Of a stretch of 20,763 bases of DNA, positions 162-19,190 are shown in pieces; positions within the stretch are counted from its first letter, which is position 1, and each line of letters begins with the position of its first letter. The translations under genes and the position numbers were made by a program. Location of the stretch: IMG/VR virus record IMGVR_UViG_3300006810_000520, positions 1 to 20,763 of that record. One strand, 5' to 3'. This DNA comes from a virus. The notes beneath the pieces are model-generated. The model did not search any database, was not told the DNA's origin, and saw only the letters and a program-made list of their open reading frames with translations.

Positions 162-260
162 AATCTCGACGAGAATGCGCATGATTTAATCTAGTCGAGA
201 ACGCACACATAAATCTAGACTAGAATACGCACATCATTCTAATCTAGATACACACATACA
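162..260 (+). repeat. Array of four degenerate ~25-bp tandem repeats with palindromic cores
   Basis: Four copies start with AATCT at 162, 188, 212 and 241, spaced 26, 24 and 29 bp. Each has an 11-bp palindromic core followed by a purine/pyrimidine tail resembling ATGCGCAT or ACGCACAC. The cores are TCTCG-A-CGAGA (164-174), TCTAG-T-CGAGA (190-200) and TCTAG-A-CTAGA (214-224), with a decayed fourth (TCTAGATACAC, 243-253). Copies 1 and 3 differ at both arms in a compensating way, so the dyad is kept while the sequence changes. The array begins directly after a stop codon and ends about 10 bp before the next start. This could be a set of operator sites or small RNA hairpins; the function is unknown. 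Confidence 0.75.
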
Positions 261-270
261 AACAAAAACA

Positions 271-432
271 ATGAACAATCAAAAACAAATCAATTCAATT
301 GGTTTCACAATTACATATCAAACTCCATACAATAATTGTGAATGGAGAACACAATCATTCACCACAAAAGAAGAGGCAGAAAGAATGATTTCATTCTATC
401 AGTCTTGTGGTTCACCTGCTAAGTTTATCTGA
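271..432 (+). CDS. Small conserved-looking phage protein, unknown function (53 aa)
   Basis: ATG at 271 to TGA at 430-432 encodes 53 residues beginning MNNQKQINSIGFTITYQ. A probable beta-hairpin (GFTITYQT ... EWRTQSF) is followed by a helix (TKEEAERMISFY) and a closing SCGSPAKFI tail. The pattern of two strands, a helix that starts at a T-x-E-E-A cap and a Cys-Gly end is one I associate with small accessory proteins of T4-like cyanophages, but I cannot name a family. No strong Shine-Dalgarno sequence precedes it; the leader is A-rich. It lies immediately after the palindromic repeat array, so those sites may control it. The next gene starts 11 bp after its stop. Confidence 0.7.
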   Translation: MNNQKQINSIGFTITYQTPYNNCEWRTQSFTTKEEAERMISFYQSCGSPAKFI

Positions 433-1919: not shown

Positions 1920-2090
1920 ATGAAAAGAGGATCAAACAATAATACAGAGTATTTGCAAGTTGACCCCATCACAGGTGAATACTATGTTATAATACCTGAG
2001 TGGGTGGTAAACGACCTATGTTGGTATGAAGATACCGAAATCGAAATTGATATCGAGTCTAATGAATTAGTTTTAAAAGAAAAACAATGA
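1920..2090 (+). CDS. AbrB/MazE-like small DNA-binding-type protein (56 aa)
   Basis: ATG at 1920 to TGA at 2088-2090 encodes 56 residues. The body (EYYVIIPEWVVNDLCWYEDT, then EIEIDIESNELVLKE) matches the SpoVT/AbrB swapped-hairpin plan: a strand ending in an IP motif, a short helix (WVVNDL), a turn where AbrB proteins have L-G-W/L-x-x-G-D, a strand, then a final strand ending in a Leu-Lys-Glu tail. Proteins of this fold bind DNA as dimers and act as transition-state regulators or antitoxins. No toxin-like gene follows; instead the next gene overlaps by four bases (ATGA at 2087-2090), so translation is probably coupled. Upstream lies the near-palindrome TATATACTATATA. The fold call is from pattern only; a regulatory role is inferred. 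Confidence 0.65.
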   Translation: MKRGSNNNTEYLQVDPITGEYYVIIPEWVVNDLCWYEDTEIEIDIESNELVLKEKQ

Positions 2091-6905: not shown

Positions 6906-9900
6906 ATGATCGGAACAACTTTTGACAGTCGAGTAAAGATACATCAAGTAATTCAAAATCAACTACCAGAATTTATCTTAGATGAAAGCCCAAAGGCAGT
7001 TGATTTTTTAAAACAATATTTTATTTCTCAAGAATATCAAGGTGGACCAACCGATATTGTTGAGAATTTAGACCAATATTTAAAATTAGATAATCTAACC
7101 CCAGAAGTCGTTGGTGGATCAGTAACTTTATCAGAATCTATTAACAATTCACAAACTACTATTGTAGTAAATTCTACAAAAGGATTTCCAAATTCATATG
7201 GAATCTTAAAAATTGACGATGAGATTATTACATATAAAGAGAAAACTGAAACTACATTTAATGGTTGTATACGTGGATTTAGTGGAGTAACTAATTATCA
7301 TAAAGATTTAGAGTATGAGGAATTAGTATTCTCAGAATCTTCTAGTTCGTCTCATACTTCTGGAGCAAAAATTGAAAATCTCAGTGTATTATTCTTAATA
7401 GAATTTTATAAAAAGTTAAAATATACATTTACTCCAGGATTAGAAGACCTTGATTTTGTTTCCGATTTGAACGTTGGTAATTTTATTAAACATGCAAAAA
7501 CATTTTATCAGTCTAAAGGAACAGAAGAATCATTTAGAATACTTTTTAATATTTTATTTGGTGTAAATCCAAAAATTGTAGACCTGGAAAAATTCTTAAT
7601 CAAATCTTCTGGTGCAAATTACATTAGACGAGAGGCATTGATTGTTGAAAAAATTTCTGGAGATATTTCTTCATTATTAGGTCAGACAATTAGATCTGAA
7701 AAAGATCCTTCTATATCTGGATCAATATCAGAAATTGAAATTATTACTAGAAATAATAATACTTATTATAAAATTCTAATGTTCGTTGGTTATGATGATA
7801 TCAAAGAAACAGCATTTTCAACTTTTGTTATTACACCAAATACAAAATGTATCGATGATATCACGGTAGGAGAAACAGTAATCACCGTAGACTCTACGCT
7901 AGGATTTTTAGATTCTAGTATTTTATATGTTAATGGTAATATTATTGAATATACAAGTAAATCAATTAATCAATTTTTTGGTTGCAAGAGTTTAAACAGC
8001 AACTCAATTTCTATTTCTATACCCAAAAAATCTTCAATCGTATCTGATTTTACATATTATGGATACGAAAACGGTGATATTACAAAAAAAGTAATCTTTA
8101 GGGTAACTGGTGTTTTATCTGATCTTAGAATACTTTCGCAAAATTACAGTTTACTTGAAAATGACATTATTGGCGTAAAACAATTGGGTGATAAAATTAA
8201 TATTCCTGAGGATAATTCTAATTTAACTTATAAACAAATACATGCAAATAGTTGGATTTATAACACTAGTTCCAGTTATCAAATAGATGTTATAGGATCT
8301 TCTTTTGTAATTACAAAATCTTCTATACATAAATCTTCTATTAAAGTAGGTGATTATGTAGAAATTGTTTCTAAAATTACCAATCTTCCCGTCAGTGGAT
8401 TGGATAATGTTTTAGTGATTAGTATAGTTGATAAGAAAATAACACTAAATCAAAATCTTTCTTCATTAAATCCATTGAGATTATATGAAATAAGAAGGAA
8501 ATTAGTCAAATCAAATAGTTCTATTGTACCAATTAGTATTGATGGTAATGAAAATTTAAATAATAAAGTATTTGCTGATGTGCAAAATACATATTCTGAT
8601 AATAATGGTGAATTCATTTATGTAGCATCAAATTCATTACCTTCTTATACTATAGATAGTAATATTTTTGAGTATGAAGTATCTGATGTAAGTAATTATA
8701 GTGAAATAACGCAAAAATATTCCCAACTTGAGTTAAATGCTAATATATCATTTTTAACCGGAGATGAAATTTATTATACTTATTCAGATACCCCAATTTC
8801 TGGATTGGAAGAAGGCAAATACTATGTTGAATTAGTATCATCCAGAAAAATAAGATTATATACATCAAGAAACTTTATTGATATTTCATCGTATATCGAA
8901 TTTGGATCCTTAACTTCTGGCACACATACATTCACATTATTGTCACAAAAAGAAAAATTCATTTCACCTCAAAAAACACTAAAGAAATTTAAACTAGATC
9001 CAGATATTGGTAATATTGAAGGTGATGTAACACTTCCAGGATCGATTGGAATGTTATCTAATGGTGTTGAGATATTCAACTATAAATCAAATGATAAAAT
9101 CTATTATGGTCCATTAGAGTCTGTTTCAACTTTAAATCCTGGAAAAAATTATGATGTTATAAATCCACCAAAATTATTGGTTTCCGGTAATGCAAAAGTT
9201 CAACCAATTTTACAGGGAAGTATTGCAGAAGTTTATGTAGACCCTCAAGAATTTGACATTGAAGTAAATGTTTCAATAGCGGTTACTGGTGGAAATGGAA
9301 AAAATTCGATTCTAAAACCAATAATTACTCGCAAAAGAAGAGAGGTACTCTTTGATGCTAGAGAATCATCGAAAGGTGGTGGTGTTGATATTACTAATGA
9401 AAGAATTACTTTCTTATCAGATCACAATTTTATCACGGGGCAAGAAGTAACTTATGATAATAATGGGAATTCTAATATAGGAATATCATCATTCAAAGCT
9501 GGAAATTATGATCAAGAACAAGAATTGGTTGACGAATCTGTATATTTTGTAAAAGTATTAAACAATACTACTGTTCAGATTCATAATACTTTTGGAGATT
9601 CGATATCTGGTGTTAACACAGTTGGATTTACTACTATTGGAACATCTGGCATTCAAAAGTTTAAAACAAAAATATCAAATACACTATCAGAAATTAAAGT
9701 TTATGATGGTGGAGAAGGATTCACAAATAGAAATTTAAGAGTTAATCCATCTGGTATATCAACTTATAAAAGTACTATTAATTTTGTAAATCATGGATTT
9801 TCAACAGGAGAAATAGTAACTTATAATTATCAAACTAGTCCAATAACTGGAATATCTACAAACAATCAATACTATGTAATTAAACTTACTAATAATGCTT

Positions 9901-12900
9901 TTAGAATTTGTGATGCTGGAATTGGTGCGACTATTAGGGAAAATTATGAAAAAAATAATTATGTAAAATTTTCTAGTACTGGATCAGGATATCAAATCTT
10001 CAATTATCCATCAATATCAGTAACTGTAAATTATAATTCAATAGGAGTTGGTACAACGGCAATTAGAGGTACAATAGTTGCAACTCCAGTAGTTAAAGGT
10101 GGAATAGTTGATACTTACGTATATGAAAAAGGATCTGATTATGGATCTAAAGTATTAAATTTCCATAAAAAACCATCAATAAAAGTTGAAGAACCCAATC
10201 ATGCTCAAATAAAACCCATTATTAGTGATGGAAAAATAACCAAAACCCTGATTCTTTATTCCGGATCTAAGTATAGTTCTACCCCAGATATTGCTGTTAT
10301 AGGAGATGGTACTGGGGCTAAATTAAGGGGTATTATAGGATCAAACGGAAAACTTTCCTCGATAATTGTAGTTAATCAGGGATTTGGATATAGTGAAGAA
10401 AAAACATCAATTTTAGTTAGATCTCCCGGACAGAATGTAATTTTTAATCCTAATGTAAGAAGTCTATCTATAAATCAAGGATATAAGTATGGTATACAAG
10501 GAGCATTTGGTAGAGAAGTTGCAAATGAGTTATTATATAAATCTGATAAAGGATTGCAATATTTTGTATATGCATATACTAAAAAGATTCAAGATTACTT
10601 TAATGATACGGGAACAACACATTCACCAATAATTGGATGGTCTTATGATGGTATTCCAATATATGGACCATACGGATATACGGATCCTTATAATTCAAAT
10701 ACATCACCAAAATTAATTTCTACTGGATATGGTACAACTACTATTGTAAATAGACCTTCTGAGTTTGAAATTGGATTTTTTAAGGAAGATTATGCATTTA
10801 ATGGGGAAGGTGACTTAGATGAACATAATGGTAGATATTGTGTAACCCCAGAATTTCCAAATGGAACCTATGCTTATTTTGCAACTTCAGAATTAAATGT
10901 TCTTGGAGAATTAACTGGAAAGTTTCCGTATTTTATTGGAAATCATTTTAGATCAAAATTTATATCTGATAATATAAATTTAAATCAATCTACATTTGAT
11001 TTAAATAATTCAGGTTTGTTTAGAAATACCTTACCATATAATGTTAATGATCAATATGCTGGGAATGACTTTATTGTCGAATCAAATGAACTAATTAACC
11101 AAACTGCACAAATTGAGTCTGTCAGTCATGGTGAAGTAACATCTTTAAAGATTATAGAATCAGGAGATAATTACAAGGTATCTGACAGATTGAATTTTGA
11201 TGAATCTAATTCCGATGGATTTGGAATCAATGCCCAAGTTTCGGAATTAAAAGGTAGACAAATTGTTGAAATTAATACAAATAGGATTACTTATCAGAAT
11301 GTTGTTGTTACTAGAAAAAATAATAAAAAACTTGAATTTAGAATAGATCCATATCATGAATTTAATAGTGGTGATAATATTAATATTTCAGGAATAACTA
11401 CAGATTTATTCACTCTAAATGGTCAATATAAAATAGGATTTACAACTTATACTTCATACACCACCAAGTACATTCCACCGGCAGGTAGTACTGGTATTGT
11501 AACATTCATGACTTTACCTTTCATTCCCGGAAATATTTCTATAGGAAGTAGTATCAAAATTGAAAATGAAGTTGTAGAAATCCTTGATAAATTTGATATT
11601 CAAAATACCTTAAAAATTAAAAGAGTTGGATCTGGTGTATCTCATGCTGAAGGAACTTCGGTTTATTTCTTACCCAATTCGTTTGAAATTGATAAAGATA
11701 CTGATCCGTTCAATTCCAAAAATACTACAAAAGTGTATTTCAATCCAAGAAATACGTTGGGGATTGGAACTACATCAGGTGGTGGAGATAATAGAAGTTA
11801 TTGGATAGATGGTGTAAAATATTACACATTTACACCAACCCAATCAATATTCATACCAAAACATCCATTTAGAACTGGACAAAAACTTACTTTTAGAAAG
11901 CAGTCTGGAACTTCTGGATTAACAATAAGAGACGAAAGTGGAAATACTTCTATATTATTATTATCATTGAGTCAGACAATGTATGCTATTAATAAGTCTA
12001 AAGACTATATTGGAATTGCTACTAGTAGAGAATCTGCAGTAACTGGTAATGGAGTATTTTTCCCTGGACCAACAGGAACAGATAATGAGTTTTATACTAT
12101 CGAATCATCAGAAACGCAACTTCTTTGTGATGTAAATAAACTTGAGTCTACAATAGTAACTACATCTGAACATTTACTTCAGAAAAATGATCAAATAGAT
12201 CTCATAATTAAACCAAATTTATCTGTTGGAATTGGAACTACAACTTCAATAAAATTAAGATATAGTGATCAGTCAAAGTCTTTGTTAGTACATAAAACTT
12301 TAATCGAAAATGTTAATACCTCCACGAATACTATAGGTATAACATCACATTTATTTAATACTGGCGATTTAGTTTATTATGATTCTGAAGATACTGTTGC
12401 CGCTGGATTGGTCACAGGAAAATATTATGTTTGTAAGATAGATCATAACAATATTAAATTATCTACAAATTATTATGATTGCCTTTTAGATTCACCAAAA
12501 ACTGTGTCTATTACTTCTAGTGGAGGTAATTTACAAGAACTTTGGTTTGTTAATCCAAAATTAAACTTTGTAAACAACAATAATATTATATTTGATGCTA
12601 CAGATCCATCATTAGTAGGGTATAATTTTAATCTGTATTATGATAATAAATTTAACAATAAATTTATATTAGATTTTGAAGACCCGACTCCAATTTTATC
12701 GGGAGTTGGAACTTTTGGGTCGTCTGGATTTTTAACTATTAACCATTCTGGTAGAATTCCACAAAAATTATATTATAATTTAGAAAAAAATCACACACCA
12801 CAAGATATTGATGAAGATGTTATTGATTTTTGTGAGCTTGAATTTTCTAATAGTGCTTATAATGGGCGATATAATGTTCATGGAATAGGTTCTACAACAT

Positions 12901-15900
12901 TTAGTATTTCTTTAAGAAACACTCCAGAAAAATTAAATTATACTAGTTCTAATTGTGATGTTTTGGAGTATGTTACAACTTCAAAGTCTGCCAAAGGTCC
13001 AATTAATAAAGTAAAAATTATTTCTGGTGGATCTAATTATAATAAGTTACCAGTTTATAATGGTGCAATATCTCAAAATGGCGATGGTGCATATATTTTA
13101 CCAAAATCTTCAAGCATTGGTAGATTAAATAGATTTAGAATTATCAATGAAGGATTTGAATATTCGTCGGATAAAACTTTAGTGCCATTTGCAGAAATTC
13201 CAAAAGTAGTCTCACTTAAAAATTCTAAAAAAGTATCTTTCGTCGATGTTGTTTATGGTGGAAAATATTATCTGACACCACCAAATTTAGTTTTAGTGAA
13301 TAAAACTACGGGTAAAAAGATAGATAGTGGATTATTAACTGCAAATGTAAATGGAAATTCAATTGTTAGTGTAGATATTCAAAAAACTCCTGTAGGAATT
13401 CCTCTTGAAACCCCCATAGTAAGATCTGTAAATAATACTAATGGTGTTAAAATTGACACTATTCAAACCTCAGTAACTGGTGTAGGTACAATTTTCTTAG
13501 CGACTCCTATTGTAGGATTTGCAACATCTCCTTTTGTAACTGGTGATTTCGTTTTTGTTGAGGGTGTCACTAATTATGATCCCGGAATTGGTAATACAAT
13601 TGGTCTTGGGTTTAATTCTGCAGATCATGGGTATGAATTTTTTGAGGTTACTAACTATTTTACAGGTTCTAATCCAGGAAAACTTGAATTTAAAATTCCA
13701 AAATTATATGGAAATCCTGGACTAGCAAAAACTGTCCAAGATTCTTTTGCGACGGTAGTAAATAAAACCAAAATGCCATCATTTACAGTTACTACAGAAA
13801 AGTCTATTTTCTTAGAAACTGAACAATTATATTCCTCCAAAAATGGTCAAGAATTCGAAAAAAGAGATTTATATGTATCATATTCCGATGGAAACTCGGT
13901 AAGATTAACTGGTAGTTATAATCTAACTATAGGTGAACTCATAAAAGGATCTTATTCATTCTTTACTGGTCAAGTAAGTGATATTGAATCATATGAAGGT
14001 GTATTCGACGTTAGTTTTTCAAAAACAGAGGATATTGGGTGGATTGATGATGCAGGAAAAATAAGTAATGATACTCAGGTAATACAAGATAATGATTATT
14101 ATCAAAATCTTTCATACACTATTAAAAGTTCTAAGAGTTGGGAAGAGATAGTAACACCGGTTAATAACTTAGTCCATCCTACTGGACTTAAGAATTTTGC
14201 AGACATAGAAGTGCAGCAAAATGCTCAGACTGGAATTGCAACATTTGGTAATAGTCAAATTGAAATTATCAGAGACTGTATTCAAGTTTCTGATGTTACT
14301 ACTGTTAATAATATAGATTTGGTTTATGATATAGAACCTTTAATAGATTCTACAAATATTGTTAAGTTTCAAAACCTTAAACTTGCAGATTACGTTGAGT
14401 GTAGAACTAATAGAGTATTAACTATAGATGATATTAGTCCATTATTCTCCAGTATCGAAGACGAGAAAAAATTAGCATACACAATTGTTTCACCATTAAG
14501 TATATTAAAAAGACTTAATAAAGCTTTAATACAAATTAAAGAGATTGGTGGTAATGACATACAAATATCGGAAATTGTTGTTATTAATGATCCTGATGAA
14601 TCATTCACTTTACAAAGAGGATTTGTTTCAAACAAAAATACTTCTATAGGTGATGTAACTGGATTTATTGATGATTTTAGTACATTCTTCTTGAAATTTG
14701 ATCCGGTAGATACTTTCAATACAGATTATGAATTAAAAATTTTGAAGACAGAATTCACAACTTCATTTACCGGTATTTCAACTTATAGTCTAGGGATGAA
14801 TAGACTAATTTCATCTAATGCTATAGTTAATCCAGGAATAACAACTACTATAGTATCATTTGAATCTGAAAAATTTGATTCATTCTATACCAGTGTTCAT
14901 TTTTATGATATTGTGACTAATGAAGCAAACTATGTGGAACTTTTTGTCACACATGATAACGAAAATACATATGTAAATGAATTCTATTTTGATAGTAATG
15001 ATTCTAATTATGGAAATTATATTGGATCTTTTGGTGCATCACTATCTAATGGTGTTATAAGTCTTGATTTTGAAAATTTAAATATCAGCAATAAGTACAG
15101 ATTCTCTAGTAAGACAGTTGGATTTGGATCAACAGCTGTTGGAATAGAAACATATAGATTTAAATATTCTGGACAACCTGATGGATTAGAGGAAACTGCA
15201 TTATATGCATCAGAATATGTTAATTCAGCATCTAATGTTGATGTAGTTGTTGTAGATTCAAGAAGAATTACATCTTTAAAATCTACCGTAAGAGTTTCTT
15301 ATGGACAAACATCTGCTCTACATCAAGTATTGCTTGTTTCAGATAAAATTGATGTATCTACTACTCAATATCCATTCGTATCTATTGGTGCAACATCTGG
15401 AATAGGCACATTTGGCGGATCTATAGATGGATTTGATTTAAAATTAACATTTTATCCAGATGTTACAGAAACAAATGGTGCTAATTTAGAAATTAGAGCA
15501 TTTACTGAAGAATTCTATGGTGAGTTTGATGAGATTAATATACCACCAAAACTTTTCTATGGACAAGTTACAGAGTCATTTAATATTGCAAAATATTTCG
15601 GTTCTAATTCGGAAAGAAAAGATAGATTAAACTTCACATTAAATCACAATGGAACACCAATATTCCAAAAAGAATTTGATCCATCTGATATTAATGTTTT
15701 AGATCGCAATACTCATACATTTAATATTACAGACCATTTCTTCAGCACTGGAGAAGAACTTTATTACAGACCTAAATCTACTTATGTTGGTGTTGGAACT
15801 GTTGCAGTTGGTATAGGTACAACTGAAAATTATCTTGGGATAACTACAGATATACTTCCAGAAAAAGTGTATCCAATTAAAATAGATAATAATCAATTTA

Positions 15901-18900
15901 GATTATCAACAAAAAGAGAATATGCTCTTGCTGGTATATATGTGACATTTACATCATATGGTGAAGGAAACGCTCATCAACTCGAAATGGCTAAGAAAAA
16001 TGAAAAAGCATTTATCACCGTTGCAAACTTAACTCAATATCCATTGTCATGGACACCAAATTATCAAACATTGCAAAATAACGGTGGATCAATTGGAGTT
16101 GGAAATAGTATTTTTGCTTTAAGTGGAATTAGTAGTGTTGTAATTAGAGATGTAATTAAAATTGATGATGAATATATGAAGATTGTTAATGTTGGATTTG
16201 GTACAACGAGTATAGGTCCTATATTTAGTGGAGATGTTCCATTAATTGAAGTGACTCGTGGATTTTGTGGGACTGCATCATCAGCACACACTGATGGGTC
16301 TGAGGGTAGAATTTATAAAGGATCTTACAATATATTTGGAAAAGAAATATTCTTTACAGATCCTCCAAGAGGAAATATCACGGATCTTGTTGGATTAAAT
16401 GAAAGTAATCTTGTTAGGGAAAGAGCAAAATTCTCTGGTAGAGTATTCTTAAGAAAAGATTATACACGAAATACTGTGTATGATAATATTTCTTCAGAAT
16501 TTACTGGAATTGGTCAAACATACACATTAACAACATTGGGTGTTAATACTGTAGGTCTTGGAACAACTGCAGGAAATGGACTGATATTTATTAATAGCAT
16601 TTTCCAAACTCCAACTACAGAAAATCCAACTTTAGCAAACTATCAAATTGTTGAGGATGTTAATGTTGGTATTACTAGTGTTATATTCTCCGGTATTACC
16701 AGTTCAAATGGTAAAAAAATAGTTTCTGATTATGACCAAAATCAAAATCAATTACCTAGAGGCGGTCTAATTGTTTCATTAGGATCAACTCCAGGTCTTG
16801 GATATGCCCCCCTAGTTGGAGCAAAAGTTATTACAAGAGTTGATGGGTCGGGAACAATTCAAAGTATAGTTGGTGTTAATACAATTGGGTCAGAATTAAA
16901 CATCGATTCTGCATATTATGATCATAATGTGGGGGTTTTAGAACTCACTACTGCTGAAGATCATAGATTTGGTGAGACTGGAATTTCTGTCGCAACTAAT
17001 AGTGTATTTCTGGAAGGATTGGAATTTAGTTGTTCTGTAGAACACACAGGTATAACATCAACTATTTTCCCATATCCCGGATCAAGTCCATATGGATTTA
17101 TTTTCCCAGTAATTGGTATTGCGTCTGATAAAACATTTACTGTTAGAGTGGGGACTAGTACAATTCCACATACTTATGTTGGATCTGGAACTGCATACCC
17201 TTATTATTATGATTTAACCTATGGTTCTGGATATAGAGGTACAGTATCAGTTGCAGTAACAGAAACAGGGCATACTGGGGATGTGGCCACAATAACAGCA
17301 ACTGTTGGTCTTGGCGGTACATTGGCGTTTAATATTGTTGATGGTGGTACTGGTTATACAAATCCTCAAGTTGTTGTACCACCACCATCTTATGAATATA
17401 TGCCAATTACTGGTATATCTAGATTAGGTGTTGGAGAAACTACCGAATGTGGAACTGGCGTATTATTAAATCTTGAAATTGGACCAAGTGGATCTACCGT
17501 TGGTATTGGTACTACATTATTTGAAGTTTCATCATTTAAAATAACTAGATCTGGATTTAATTTCAGGGAAGGTGATGTATTTACTGTGGGTGGATTAGTT
17601 ACTGATAGAAGTTTAAGTCAACCGATTGAAGAATTTAAAGTAACCGTCTTAGAAACATTTAGTGACTCTTTTGGTGCTATACAATTGGGTGAAATGAATT
17701 ATATTGATTCTATAAGAAATTTACAAGATGGAAAACGAGTAAGATTCCCACTTTATTATAATTCAGAACTTTTAAGCTTTGAATCTAATCCAGAGGATCC
17801 AGATTCGTCATTAATAGAATTTGATGCACTTTTAGTTATTTTCATAAATGGAATATTACAAGAACCTAAGAAAAACTATAATTTCAGTGGTGGTACAACA
17901 TTTACATTTACTACAGCACCTAAAAAAGAAGATAATGTTTCCATCTTCTTCTATGTTGGTACTAGAGATGACGATAGCATTAGAGTTTCGGTGTCTCAAT
18001 TCATTGAACCTGGAGATATTATTCAAATAAACAGTAATAATAATTTACTGGATAGTACAGTTACCCAAAATAATAGAACTGTAGCATTAATTAGCGGATC
18101 TGATAGATTGGAAACAAATATCTATAGAGAACAGGGAATTGATGAGATTAATCCAAAACCACTGTATTGGACTAGAAAGAAAAAAGATGTTGTTGTTAAT
18201 GATGAAATTATTTCAAAAGCAAGAGATTCTATAGAACCTCAAGTGTATCCAACGTCTAAAATTATTCAAAATTTCAATATAGATGATACTGATTTATTCA
18301 TAGATAATGCAGAATTCTTCGATTATGAAGAAGGTTTACCAATAGATCCATTTGATTGTTTGATCATAAACGATCAAGATGTAAGAGTTGCTGGTGCAGT
18401 TACAGCTATAGTTTCTGCTGGTGGAACAATCAGTTCTTTAGATATTGTAGATGATGGTGATGGATATAGTGGATCTTCAGTTCAGGTAAAAATTTCAGCT
18501 CCAAAAAGAATTGGTGTTGGGATAGGAACCACAGCAACTGCAACAATAGAAGTATTGGGTGGCAAATTAACCAACAATGTAACAATTACTAATCCCGGAT
18601 TCGGTTATACCAGAACAAATCCCCCAAATGTAATTGCACCCTTCCCCCAAGGATCTACGGAATTGATTAAAGATATATCAATTGCTCAAGGATTTGATGG
18701 AGTTATTACAGGAATTGCTGTAACTGATGGATTAAATGGTGCATCGTTAGCATTAGAATTTAAAATTGTTAGAGATCCTGCTGTATATACTGATTTAAAT
18801 ATTGGATATCCAATTTATATTAATAATACTAGAGTTGGTAGTGGAGTTACTTCTATTGAATATAATGATAATGATACTGTTGCTATAGGAACTGCATTTT

Positions 18901-19190
18901 TAGATAATATCTACCACATTCACGGTATCAATAAAACTTTGGGAATAATTACTTGTAATGTTGCATCAGACACTAGTATTGTTGGTATTGCCACTACAGG
19001 AACTGTTTCTTATCCTGTTGGAACTTTCTCATGGGGAAGATTATCTGGATTCTCTAGGTCAAATCCAGTATCAATAGCTGTTACTGGTAAAACTCTTGAT
19101 GTTGGACTGTCAACTTTTGCAAGTGTTCAAAGGAGAGGAACTGGATTAAGAAATGTCGGACCTTTGAAAAAGCGGGTAATGGGATTATAA
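6906..19190 (+). CDS. Giant gp7-position baseplate wedge protein with modular extension and YHYH domain (4094 aa)
   Basis: A single uninterrupted frame of 4094 codons, four times the length of T4 gp7 (1032 aa). Residues about 15-55 and 160-300 resemble the C-terminal third of T4 gp7: PEFILDESPKAVDFLKQYF early, then AKTFYQSKGTEESFRILFNI and SLLGQTIRSEKDPSISG. A beta module (about 69-125) is inserted between these parts. The remainder is a modular beta-rich body. Family A (GFP...IDDEIITY type) occurs near 69-125, 321-360 and 3065-3133. Family B (H-F-x-T-G-D-x-V-x-Y ... G-x-Y-Y-V) occurs near 608-680, 829-921, 954-1035, 1805-1883 and 2933-3027. Family C (G-x-G-Y) occurs near 1059-1179, 2031-2150, 3479 and 3849. 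A YHYH domain lies at 1195-1335, INGxxQxP modules near 3228 and 3641, and scattered GIGTT motifs throughout. No signal peptide or membrane helix. It most likely forms the wedge core plus a long peripheral appendage. Confidence 0.85.
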   Translation: MIGTTFDSRVKIHQVIQNQLPEFILDESPKAVDFLKQYFISQEYQGGPTDIVENLDQYLKLDNLTPEVVGGSVTLSESINNSQTTIVVNSTKGFPNSYGILKIDDEIITYKEKTETTFNGCIRGFSGVTNYHKDLEYEELVFSESSSSSHTSGAKIENLSVLFLIEFYKKLKYTFTPGLEDLDFVSDLNVGNFIKHAKTFYQSKGTEESFRILFNILFGVNPKIVDLEKFLIKSSGANYIRREALIVEKISGDISSLLGQTIRSEKDPSISGSISEIEIITRNNNTYYKILMFVGYDDIKETAFSTFVITPNTKCIDDITVGETVITVDSTLGFLDSSILYVNGNIIEYTSKSINQFFGCKSLNSNSISISIPKKSSIVSDFTYYGYENGDITKKVIFRVTGVLSDLRILSQNYSLLENDIIGVKQLGDKINIPEDNSNLTYKQIHANSWIYNTSSSYQIDVIGSSFVITKSSIHKSSIKVGDYVEIVSKITNLPVSGLDNVLVISIVDKKITLNQNLSSLNPLRLYEIRRKLVKSNSSIVPISIDGNENLNNKVFADVQNTYSDNNGEFIYVASNSLPSYTIDSNIFEYEVSDVSNYSEITQKYSQLELNANISFLTGDEIYYTYSDTPISGLEEGKYYVELVSSRKIRLYTSRNFIDISSYIEFGSLTSGTHTFTLLSQKEKFISPQKTLKKFKLDPDIGNIEGDVTLPGSIGMLSNGVEIFNYKSNDKIYYGPLESVSTLNPGKNYDVINPPKLLVSGNAKVQPILQGSIAEVYVDPQEFDIEVNVSIAVTGGNGKNSILKPIITRKRREVLFDARESSKGGGVDITNERITFLSDHNFITGQEVTYDNNGNSNIGISSFKAGNYDQEQELVDESVYFVKVLNNTTVQIHNTFGDSISGVNTVGFTTIGTSGIQKFKTKISNTLSEIKVYDGGEGFTNRNLRVNPSGISTYKSTINFVNHGFSTGEIVTYNYQTSPITGISTNNQYYVIKLTNNAFRICDAGIGATIRENYEKNNYVKFSSTGSGYQIFNYPSISVTVNYNSIGVGTTAIRGTIVATPVVKGGIVDTYVYEKGSDYGSKVLNFHKKPSIKVEEPNHAQIKPIISDGKITKTLILYSGSKYSSTPDIAVIGDGTGAKLRGIIGSNGKLSSIIVVNQGFGYSEEKTSILVRSPGQNVIFNPNVRSLSINQGYKYGIQGAFGREVANELLYKSDKGLQYFVYAYTKKIQDYFNDTGTTHSPIIGWSYDGIPIYGPYGYTDPYNSNTSPKLISTGYGTTTIVNRPSEFEIGFFKEDYAFNGEGDLDEHNGRYCVTPEFPNGTYAYFATSELNVLGELTGKFPYFIGNHFRSKFISDNINLNQSTFDLNNSGLFRNTLPYNVNDQYAGNDFIVESNELINQTAQIESVSHGEVTSLKIIESGDNYKVSDRLNFDESNSDGFGINAQVSELKGRQIVEINTNRITYQNVVVTRKNNKKLEFRIDPYHEFNSGDNINISGITTDLFTLNGQYKIGFTTYTSYTTKYIPPAGSTGIVTFMTLPFIPGNISIGSSIKIENEVVEILDKFDIQNTLKIKRVGSGVSHAEGTSVYFLPNSFEIDKDTDPFNSKNTTKVYFNPRNTLGIGTTSGGGDNRSYWIDGVKYYTFTPTQSIFIPKHPFRTGQKLTFRKQSGTSGLTIRDESGNTSILLLSLSQTMYAINKSKDYIGIATSRESAVTGNGVFFPGPTGTDNEFYTIESSETQLLCDVNKLESTIVTTSEHLLQKNDQIDLIIKPNLSVGIGTTTSIKLRYSDQSKSLLVHKTLIENVNTSTNTIGITSHLFNTGDLVYYDSEDTVAAGLVTGKYYVCKIDHNNIKLSTNYYDCLLDSPKTVSITSSGGNLQELWFVNPKLNFVNNNNIIFDATDPSLVGYNFNLYYDNKFNNKFILDFEDPTPILSGVGTFGSSGFLTINHSGRIPQKLYYNLEKNHTPQDIDEDVIDFCELEFSNSAYNGRYNVHGIGSTTFSISLRNTPEKLNYTSSNCDVLEYVTTSKSAKGPINKVKIISGGSNYNKLPVYNGAISQNGDGAYILPKSSSIGRLNRFRIINEGFEYSSDKTLVPFAEIPKVVSLKNSKKVSFVDVVYGGKYYLTPPNLVLVNKTTGKKIDSGLLTANVNGNSIVSVDIQKTPVGIPLETPIVRSVNNTNGVKIDTIQTSVTGVGTIFLATPIVGFATSPFVTGDFVFVEGVTNYDPGIGNTIGLGFNSADHGYEFFEVTNYFTGSNPGKLEFKIPKLYGNPGLAKTVQDSFATVVNKTKMPSFTVTTEKSIFLETEQLYSSKNGQEFEKRDLYVSYSDGNSVRLTGSYNLTIGELIKGSYSFFTGQVSDIESYEGVFDVSFSKTEDIGWIDDAGKISNDTQVIQDNDYYQNLSYTIKSSKSWEEIVTPVNNLVHPTGLKNFADIEVQQNAQTGIATFGNSQIEIIRDCIQVSDVTTVNNIDLVYDIEPLIDSTNIVKFQNLKLADYVECRTNRVLTIDDISPLFSSIEDEKKLAYTIVSPLSILKRLNKALIQIKEIGGNDIQISEIVVINDPDESFTLQRGFVSNKNTSIGDVTGFIDDFSTFFLKFDPVDTFNTDYELKILKTEFTTSFTGISTYSLGMNRLISSNAIVNPGITTTIVSFESEKFDSFYTSVHFYDIVTNEANYVELFVTHDNENTYVNEFYFDSNDSNYGNYIGSFGASLSNGVISLDFENLNISNKYRFSSKTVGFGSTAVGIETYRFKYSGQPDGLEETALYASEYVNSASNVDVVVVDSRRITSLKSTVRVSYGQTSALHQVLLVSDKIDVSTTQYPFVSIGATSGIGTFGGSIDGFDLKLTFYPDVTETNGANLEIRAFTEEFYGEFDEINIPPKLFYGQVTESFNIAKYFGSNSERKDRLNFTLNHNGTPIFQKEFDPSDINVLDRNTHTFNITDHFFSTGEELYYRPKSTYVGVGTVAVGIGTTENYLGITTDILPEKVYPIKIDNNQFRLSTKREYALAGIYVTFTSYGEGNAHQLEMAKKNEKAFITVANLTQYPLSWTPNYQTLQNNGGSIGVGNSIFALSGISSVVIRDVIKIDDEYMKIVNVGFGTTSIGPIFSGDVPLIEVTRGFCGTASSAHTDGSEGRIYKGSYNIFGKEIFFTDPPRGNITDLVGLNESNLVRERAKFSGRVFLRKDYTRNTVYDNISSEFTGIGQTYTLTTLGVNTVGLGTTAGNGLIFINSIFQTPTTENPTLANYQIVEDVNVGITSVIFSGITSSNGKKIVSDYDQNQNQLPRGGLIVSLGSTPGLGYAPLVGAKVITRVDGSGTIQSIVGVNTIGSELNIDSAYYDHNVGVLELTTAEDHRFGETGISVATNSVFLEGLEFSCSVEHTGITSTIFPYPGSSPYGFIFPVIGIASDKTFTVRVGTSTIPHTYVGSGTAYPYYYDLTYGSGYRGTVSVAVTETGHTGDVATITATVGLGGTLAFNIVDGGTGYTNPQVVVPPPSYEYMPITGISRLGVGETTECGTGVLLNLEIGPSGSTVGIGTTLFEVSSFKITRSGFNFREGDVFTVGGLVTDRSLSQPIEEFKVTVLETFSDSFGAIQLGEMNYIDSIRNLQDGKRVRFPLYYNSELLSFESNPEDPDSSLIEFDALLVIFINGILQEPKKNYNFSGGTTFTFTTAPKKEDNVSIFFYVGTRDDDSIRVSVSQFIEPGDIIQINSNNNLLDSTVTQNNRTVALISGSDRLETNIYREQGIDEINPKPLYWTRKKKDVVVNDEIISKARDSIEPQVYPTSKIIQNFNIDDTDLFIDNAEFFDYEEGLPIDPFDCLIINDQDVRVAGAVTAIVSAGGTISSLDIVDDGDGYSGSSVQVKISAPKRIGVGIGTTATATIEVLGGKLTNNVTITNPGFGYTRTNPPNVIAPFPQGSTELIKDISIAQGFDGVITGIAVTDGLNGASLALEFKIVRDPAVYTDLNIGYPIYINNTRVGSGVTSIEYNDNDTVAIGTAFLDNIYHIHGINKTLGIITCNVASDTSIVGIATTGTVSYPVGTFSWGRLSGFSRSNPVSIAVTGKTLDVGLSTFASVQRRGTGLRNVGPLKKRVMGL
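6948..7805 (+). other. gp7-core region of the giant protein, split by an inserted module
   Basis: Residues 15-300 of the giant protein. By comparison with T4 gp7 as I remember it, PEFILDESPKAVDFLKQYF corresponds to the segment with YLLQDSNFEAFCEAYIQYL, and FYQSKGTEESFRILFNILFG to FYSTKGIEASYKFLFKVLYN. The following LLGQTIRSEKDPSISG matches LVGQTIYTATGRC. In T4 these lie near residues 690-830, so here the gp7 C-terminal region is at the N-terminus and the T4 N-terminal two thirds are absent or replaced. An inserted A module occupies roughly residues 69-150. Confidence 0.7.
10488..10910 (+). other. YHYH domain inside the giant structural protein
   Basis: Residues about 1195-1335. The signature elements are SPIIGWSYDGIPIYGPYGY (from residue 1241, with Gly1244 and Trp1245) and LDEHNGRYCVTPEFPNGTYA (from 1304), which are the two conserved blocks of YHYH proteins (GxxxDGxPIYGP; D-x-x-N-G-R-x-x-x-T-P-x-x-P-x-G-T-Y-x-Y). 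YHYH domains are found in secreted bacterial and marine phage proteins; their activity is not established. Upstream lies a C-type module and downstream more beta modules, so it is embedded, not terminal. Confidence 0.85.

Follow-up and report, generated by a model that had tools for sequence, protein, structure and literature searches.

Genome context and organization of the array

The window, by which we mean the whole 20.8-kb stretch of DNA analysed here, is a piece of a T4-like cyanophage (Kyanoviridae) genome. It carries an AbrB-like gene, a glycosyltransferase-like gene, a SAM decarboxylase gene, gp25, gp6, and a giant baseplate gene, with the same gene order as in the region of approximately 90.8–118 kb of Synechococcus phage S-SRM01. 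The 4094-aa ORF at 6906–19190 occupies the position of the S-SRM01 giant baseplate wedge initiator. At the left end is a small rightwards-transcribed ORF of which 52 aa are visible (3–161), its 5' end lying beyond the contig, and its TAA stop codon (159–161) adjoins an operator-like array at 161–258. To the right of the array, with a start codon at position 271, is a conserved 53-aa ORF (271–432, plus strand) with a predicted beta-beta-alpha-beta fold, and the array is thus located between two small genes, as a preliminary description had stated. A fold search with the 53-aa protein gave no confident PDB match, the best having E = 0.83, and one weak Dmd-like match. Farther to the right, a 41-aa ORF is followed by a perfect 12-bp stem with a 6-nt loop (577–606; TTCTTTATACTC ... 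GAGTATAAAGAA) and by several tandem TTCTTTATACTT-type repeats (674–748).

The array consists of three 13-bp near-palindromic sites and one half-site, with A/C-rich, G-poor spacers. Site 1 (163–175; ATCTCGACGAGAA) and site 3 (213–225; ATCTAGACTAGAA) contain the full dyads TCTCG-A-CGAGA (164–174; TCTCGACGAGA) and TCTAG-A-CTAGA (214–224; TCTAGACTAGA), respectively. The 11-bp dyads originally reported are therefore complete in units 1 and 3 but not in unit 2 (189–201; ATCTAGTCGAGAA), where the dyad (190–200; TCTAGTCGAGA) is imperfect and positions 4 and 8 place an A opposite a G. The three dyads are spaced by 26 and 24 nt, and the half-site ATCTAGAT (242–249) is a reduced fourth copy. The claim of a four-unit tandem repeat is confirmed by these coordinates, by Tandem Repeats Finder (161–258, period 24, 4.0 copies), and by two comparisons with randomized sequence. 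Site matches with no more than one mismatch number four in the window versus 0.53 expected, a count reached in none of 100 shuffles, and the three exact sites seen within 100 nt compare with never more than one in 300 first-order Markov simulations. The array is real and well above chance.

A search for sigma-70 matches gave no promoter overlapping the window array, and its coding strand lacks any terminator-like site; the single terminator-like match at the array is on the minus strand (249–213). No Rfam family matched the array above its gathering score, and its identification as a tRNA or known RNA family was rejected, since none matched.

Distribution among phages

Relatives of the two flanking ORFs are present at 68 and 56 loci in IMG/VR, and at most of these a like array is positioned directly 5' of the 53-aa ORF, with differing genes upstream. 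The 53-aa ORF is also found without an array, and 12 of 52 upstream regions hold no exact site. The search for the array in related phages that had been proposed was productive, with at least 119 viral DNA stretches carrying two tandem sites in a scan of a viral collection. The arrays can be described by position as A1, at the head of the site-bearing region, A2, in the middle, and A3, which comprises the window array and its counterparts; those downstream of A1 fill gaps between consecutive genes. A2 arrays such as those at S-SRM01 88118–88250 and L050 169–256 include a GTGCCAC ... GTGGCAC hairpin between sites.

The isolates with arrays are S-SRM01, S-BM3, S-SKS1, P-SSM2, and S-T4. Only one or two scattered sites each are found in DSL-LC03, S-B68, and S-B05, and there are no exact sites in S-PM2, S-SM2, Bellamy, S-CAM7, S-SCSM1, S-CRM01, ACG-2014f, Sf-CH8, or DSL-LC02. 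True arrays are limited to about 5–7 kb in S-SRM01 and in two long contigs, the sites lying at 85.57–91.01 kb of the 240.8-kb S-SRM01 genome (with one lone site at 154 kb), at 48.5–54.9 kb in contig G001, and at 120.6–125.5 kb in contig G005. The S-T4 record (MH412654.1) contains a four-site array twice, at 2777–2934 and 174346–174503, with identical spacing and 171.6 kb apart, reflecting either terminal redundancy or an assembly artefact. The sequence 5' of the RVTLDL-family ORF in S-CAM7/L297 (2701–2800) is without TCTMGWCKAGA and has another short repeat, ACGCAGTATAT, with spacings of 22, 24, and 43; this is possibly a diverged operator specificity.

The A3 arrays share a simple arrangement. 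In 39 distinct A3 regions, the stretch from the array to the start codon holds no 9/12 sigma-70 match, and in the 25 of these 39 where the upstream ORF is resolved, its stop codon mostly ends 0–3 nt before the first site. Transcription thus runs through A3, which occupies the interval from one gene to the next. Measured from the end of the last full site, the start codon is a median of 34 nt away (39 regions), and a half-site is found between the two in 30 of 39 relatives, versus 0.2% of shuffled tails. The fourth copy of the window array had been described as decayed, and it is indeed reduced, but it is better regarded as a recurrent half-site. The spacers in the relatives are only 6% G on the coding strand, the spacings, mostly 23–26 and 30–33, show no helical phasing, and relatives differ in the gene that precedes A3.

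Consensus and constraint

Alignment of 182 distinct exact-match units gives the consensus ATCT[C/A]G[A/T]C[G/T]AGAT, the core of which is its own reverse complement, with the asymmetry confined to the flanks. Units 1 and 3 of the window differ in both arms with symmetry kept, and the preliminary description took this as compensating change and as a sign of selection on the dyad. The difference is literally true, but there is no compensation: positions 4 (C/A) and 8 (G/T) are independent among the 182 units (102/31/33/16, Fisher p = 0.25), and they change independently between nearest relatives (76 unit pairs, p = 0.41). An A at position 4 goes together with a central T in 42 of 49 cases, and a T at position 8 with a central A, so that the association of both positions with the centre reflects a half-site preference rather than pairing between the arms.

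The argument from symmetry thus fails. Divergence between nearest relatives, measured on A3, is 0.66% in the core versus 5.8% in the spacers, which shows that selection acts on the fixed bases. This comparison supersedes an initial one that required sites in both sequences and was biased. It also serves as the test by which the array had been put at risk, namely whether dyads are broken as often as their flanks; they are not, and the array survives. The degenerate positions 4, 6, and 8 are 29% divergent in nearest-neighbour comparisons of A3 arrays, five times the value for spacers, a high turnover that could be explained by constraint on the spacers, by exchange of units, or by selection.

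A site within the early promoter

In the A1 arrays the 17–18 bp between the -35 and -10 of an early sigma-70 promoter are filled by a site. In P-SSM2 (A1 at 66.0–66.2 kb) a 12/12 consensus promoter, TTGACA-ATCTCGACTAGATCTGG-TATAAT, is located upstream of PSSM2_098; its 17-bp spacer holds the perfect site ATCTCGACTAGAT, and the site centres of the array are at -82, -47, -11, +31, and +82. Promoters with a spacer site are also present at A1 in S-SRM01 (TTGCATCTCGACGAGCATTATGCTATAAT) and S-BM3 (TTGACATATAGTCGAGATTCATCTATAAT); in S-T4 the array surrounds the same ORF family, and the regular-expression scan called no promoter over its spacer site. Among 137 promoter-like matches near arrays, a site centre is positioned 11–14 bp before the -10 in 30, whereas 200 circular shifts of the sites gave 7.3 on average and never more than 16. 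At 55 non-redundant A1 loci the site centres are at -12/-13, with further preferred positions near -45, -77, +29, and +58, but these loci were chosen for having a spacer site, leaving the 30 of 137 versus circular shifts as the sole test of position, and they represent one orthologous promoter and not 55 independent origins. An extended -10 (TG) is present at 39 of the 55, and the A1 sites are spaced in register with a 10.5-bp period (R = 0.43, n = 261).

A conserved acidic ORF (MYDDYDLDYTY...) has its start codon about 29–40 bp past the A1 -10. Sites within this ORF are in one frame in 93 of 96 cases, encoding L-D-E, so operator and protein share sequence. By sequence, the ORF is found only in array-bearing genomes (five of eight), with that of P-SSM2 recognisable by position, and this restriction may be either a cause or a consequence of the arrays, the latter because the operators lie inside the ORF. 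For the RVTLDL-family ORF after A1, the structure prediction is not confident enough to assign a fold. An ArdA-like anti-restriction gene (phrog_36653, E = 2.6e-13) is located about 1 kb 3' of A1 (L168 1839–2312 and relatives; S-SRM01 86731–87201), and the A1-regulated region may thus be an early counter-defence operon.

Other promoters are also found near arrays. To the left of A1 is a conserved leftward promoter, TTGACA-17-TAGAAT or TACGCT, seen in S-SRM01 (minus strand, L134 9500–9472) and in other phages; it points away from A1, has no evident leftward gene in S-SRM01, and could possibly express a small RNA or a replication primer. In one lineage (L120 1445–1600, L128 1395–1480) an array is positioned just 5' of a tRNA-Leu promoter, which itself holds the half-sites TTGACTAGATCA ... 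TGATCTAGTCAA.

Candidate binding proteins

A presence/absence comparison of 14 genomes gave no gene present in all eight array-bearing genomes and in none of the six array-less ones. The only candidates of a DNA-binding type are AbrB/MazE-like genes, each with exceptions, and no CI-like gene was found. The AbrB/MazE-like ORF of the window (56 aa, 1920–2090, plus strand; phrog_661) belongs to family 2 and is a weak candidate for binding the sites. Family 2 is present in six of the eight array-bearing genomes, with a marginal match in contig G005, and is absent from S-BM3; it was rejected as the regulator, as Sf-CH8 has the gene while lacking arrays of this motif or of any other that is obvious. 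Family 1 had seemed linked to the arrays, and it was rejected in turn, as the array-less DSL-LC03 carries its closest relative.

A proposed operator cluster for early genes

We interpret the array as an operator cluster through which a dimeric DNA-binding protein controls early genes in T4-like cyanophages, and give this reading a probability of roughly 0.7. An operator array was one of the readings offered at the outset, and it is supported by the site between -35 and -10 in dozens of related phages, with the core conserved and the spacers changing. The evidence is of sequence (the motif, its constraint, its clustering, and the promoter geometry), from which we infer a dimeric binder, repression, a phage origin for the regulator, and a block to elongation. 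The 13-bp site ATCTMGWCKAGAT, clustered in one small region of the genome, would be bound by a dimeric protein that is probably phage-encoded and accumulates early in infection. Bound at A1, the protein would occlude RNA polymerase and shut off the early transcript; bound at A3, it would block read-through into the next genes, in the manner of mycobacteriophage stoperators. Repression is proposed because of the placement of the site within the promoter. MerR-type activation occurs at over-long spacers and is not expected here, as the A1 spacers are 17–18 bp. The arrays look like an undescribed way of turning early genes off in these phages. We suggest only tentatively, at somewhat less than even odds, that T4-like cyanophages encode their own early-gene repressor, acting through tandem 13-bp near-palindromes over a promoter and through stoperator-like roadblocks between the downstream genes.

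Alternatively, the phage may be making use of a cyanobacterial transcription factor of its host, with ATCTCGACGAGAT as the operator. Host-type regulatory sites are known in phages, where NtcA and Pho boxes have been searched for (PMC3037559), but the distribution of paired sites makes this unlikely. The two-site pattern has 40 matches in 84,980 bacterial and archaeal species genomes, nearly all of them two chance sites inside long open frames in unrelated phyla, and no cyanobacterial record is among them. One match, L256 (RGAJ01000223.1), is a 3.9-kb contig with seven sites and cyanophage genes, filed under a Rhodobacteraceae MAG; it is probably a misbinned cyanophage contig and the sole true array in the 84,980 genomes. 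With no true bacterial array in this set, a phage-encoded regulator is favoured.

It is also rather improbable that the arrays are recombination or cassette-shuffling elements like the promoter-early stem-loops (PeSLs) of other T4-like phages, which have been considered earlier for gene shuffling in S-PM2 (PMC4503421). The arrays do fit exactly into intergenic gaps of a small-gene region that is variable, and the changing gene upstream of A3 would fit such a role, but it leaves unexplained the constraint on core versus spacers, the position in the promoter spacer, the helical phasing, and the A3 arrays without a promoter. Recombination at the arrays may be a by-product instead of their function.

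The transcribed arrays could also fold into hairpins, within or between units, and control the translation or stability of the downstream mRNA, an RNA hairpin series having been the other reading offered at first. RNA folding of A3 does exceed that of dinucleotide shuffles (z = -4.5), with adjacent units pairing, and a G-poor leader ahead of the start codon and a half-site near it are in keeping with such a role. Better folding than shuffles is expected of any palindrome array, however, and positions 4 and 8 show no covariation inside a unit and no clear covariation between neighbouring ones (p = 0.08 and 0.28, 20 regions). No Rfam family was matched, and the promoter copies at -12, -45, and -77 are outside the transcript and so act as DNA. 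We regard an RNA element as very unlikely.

Similarly remote is a role as replication-origin or partition sites, as iterons or a parS-like array. The densest DnaA-box-like cluster of the genome is within about 300 bp of A1, or of the orthologous position, in S-BM3 (~6.75 kb), S-SKS1 (~151.4 kb), and S-SM2 (~58.06 kb), which suggests a putative replication origin there. The clusters and the arrays do not go together, however: S-SRM01 and G001 have arrays without a DnaA-box cluster, S-SM2 has a cluster without arrays, and exact placement in a promoter spacer is not expected of iterons. Least probable is that the protein bound at the operators activates and does not repress; some arrays are located 5' of a promoter (L130, and the tRNA-Leu promoter of L120), but a conserved site in an optimal 17–18 bp spacer and another between the -10 and the start codon are both normally polymerase-blocking.

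Comparison with known systems

T4-like cyanophages show early, middle, and late expression classes, with timing largely common to P-HM2 and P-SSM2 (PMC5082946). A review describes early and middle control in cyanomyoviruses as unclear, with motA, asi, alt, modA, and modB absent (PMC2984593). No prior description of the motif or of cyanophage early operators was found in the open-access journal literature searched; a match to the letters of the motif in the DLP6 literature was rejected as a terminator coincidence. With a defined cis-element and an identified early promoter of the model phage P-SSM2, whose sites can be mutated, the question of early control becomes directly testable, and the site provides a bait for finding an early regulator, the first for these abundant phages of marine and fresh waters.

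The MetJ, Omega, and AbrB-MazE repressors also use short repeated sites, and their cooperative binding offers a working analogy, with an AbrB-like gene located near A3; they differ in that the arrays are not strictly accompanied by any such protein. To our knowledge, the motif is unlike the known sites of these repressors. PeSL cassettes of T4-like phages consist of a promoter and a stem-loop terminator (Arbiol 2010, Comeau 2014, as cited in PMC4503421). They resemble the arrays in being intergenic and in variable small-gene regions of T4-like phages, some of the arrays having early promoters, but the unit described here is a tandem 13-bp near-palindrome, and the A3 arrays have neither a promoter nor a coding-strand terminator. 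Lambda-type OR and OL are similar in having several near-palindromic sites with an odd centre over an early promoter; the cyanophage sites differ in sequence and length, number up to eight per promoter region, and include additional promoter-less arrays downstream.

There are also parallels in arrangement with the operators and stoperators of mycobacteriophage L5 and its Cluster A relatives, bound by the repressor gp71 (structure in PMC9283540). As in L5, there are many 13-bp copies per phage, some at an early promoter and others in the short gaps between genes, close to stop and start codons, and promoter-less intergenic copies are present in the 39 A3 regions. The asymmetric site and the genome-wide spread of stoperators do not apply here: the L5 sites are asymmetric, bound by monomers, distributed across the genome, and serve lysogeny, whereas the cyanophage sites are near-palindromic, tandem, and clustered in one region, and the T4-like phages that carry them have been described as lytic. 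While operators as such are familiar elements, those found here form an undescribed family with an unusual, stoperator-like arrangement in such phages. If the proposed mechanism is correct, the arrays would amount to a shut-off system of stoperator-like kind in phages regarded as lytic.
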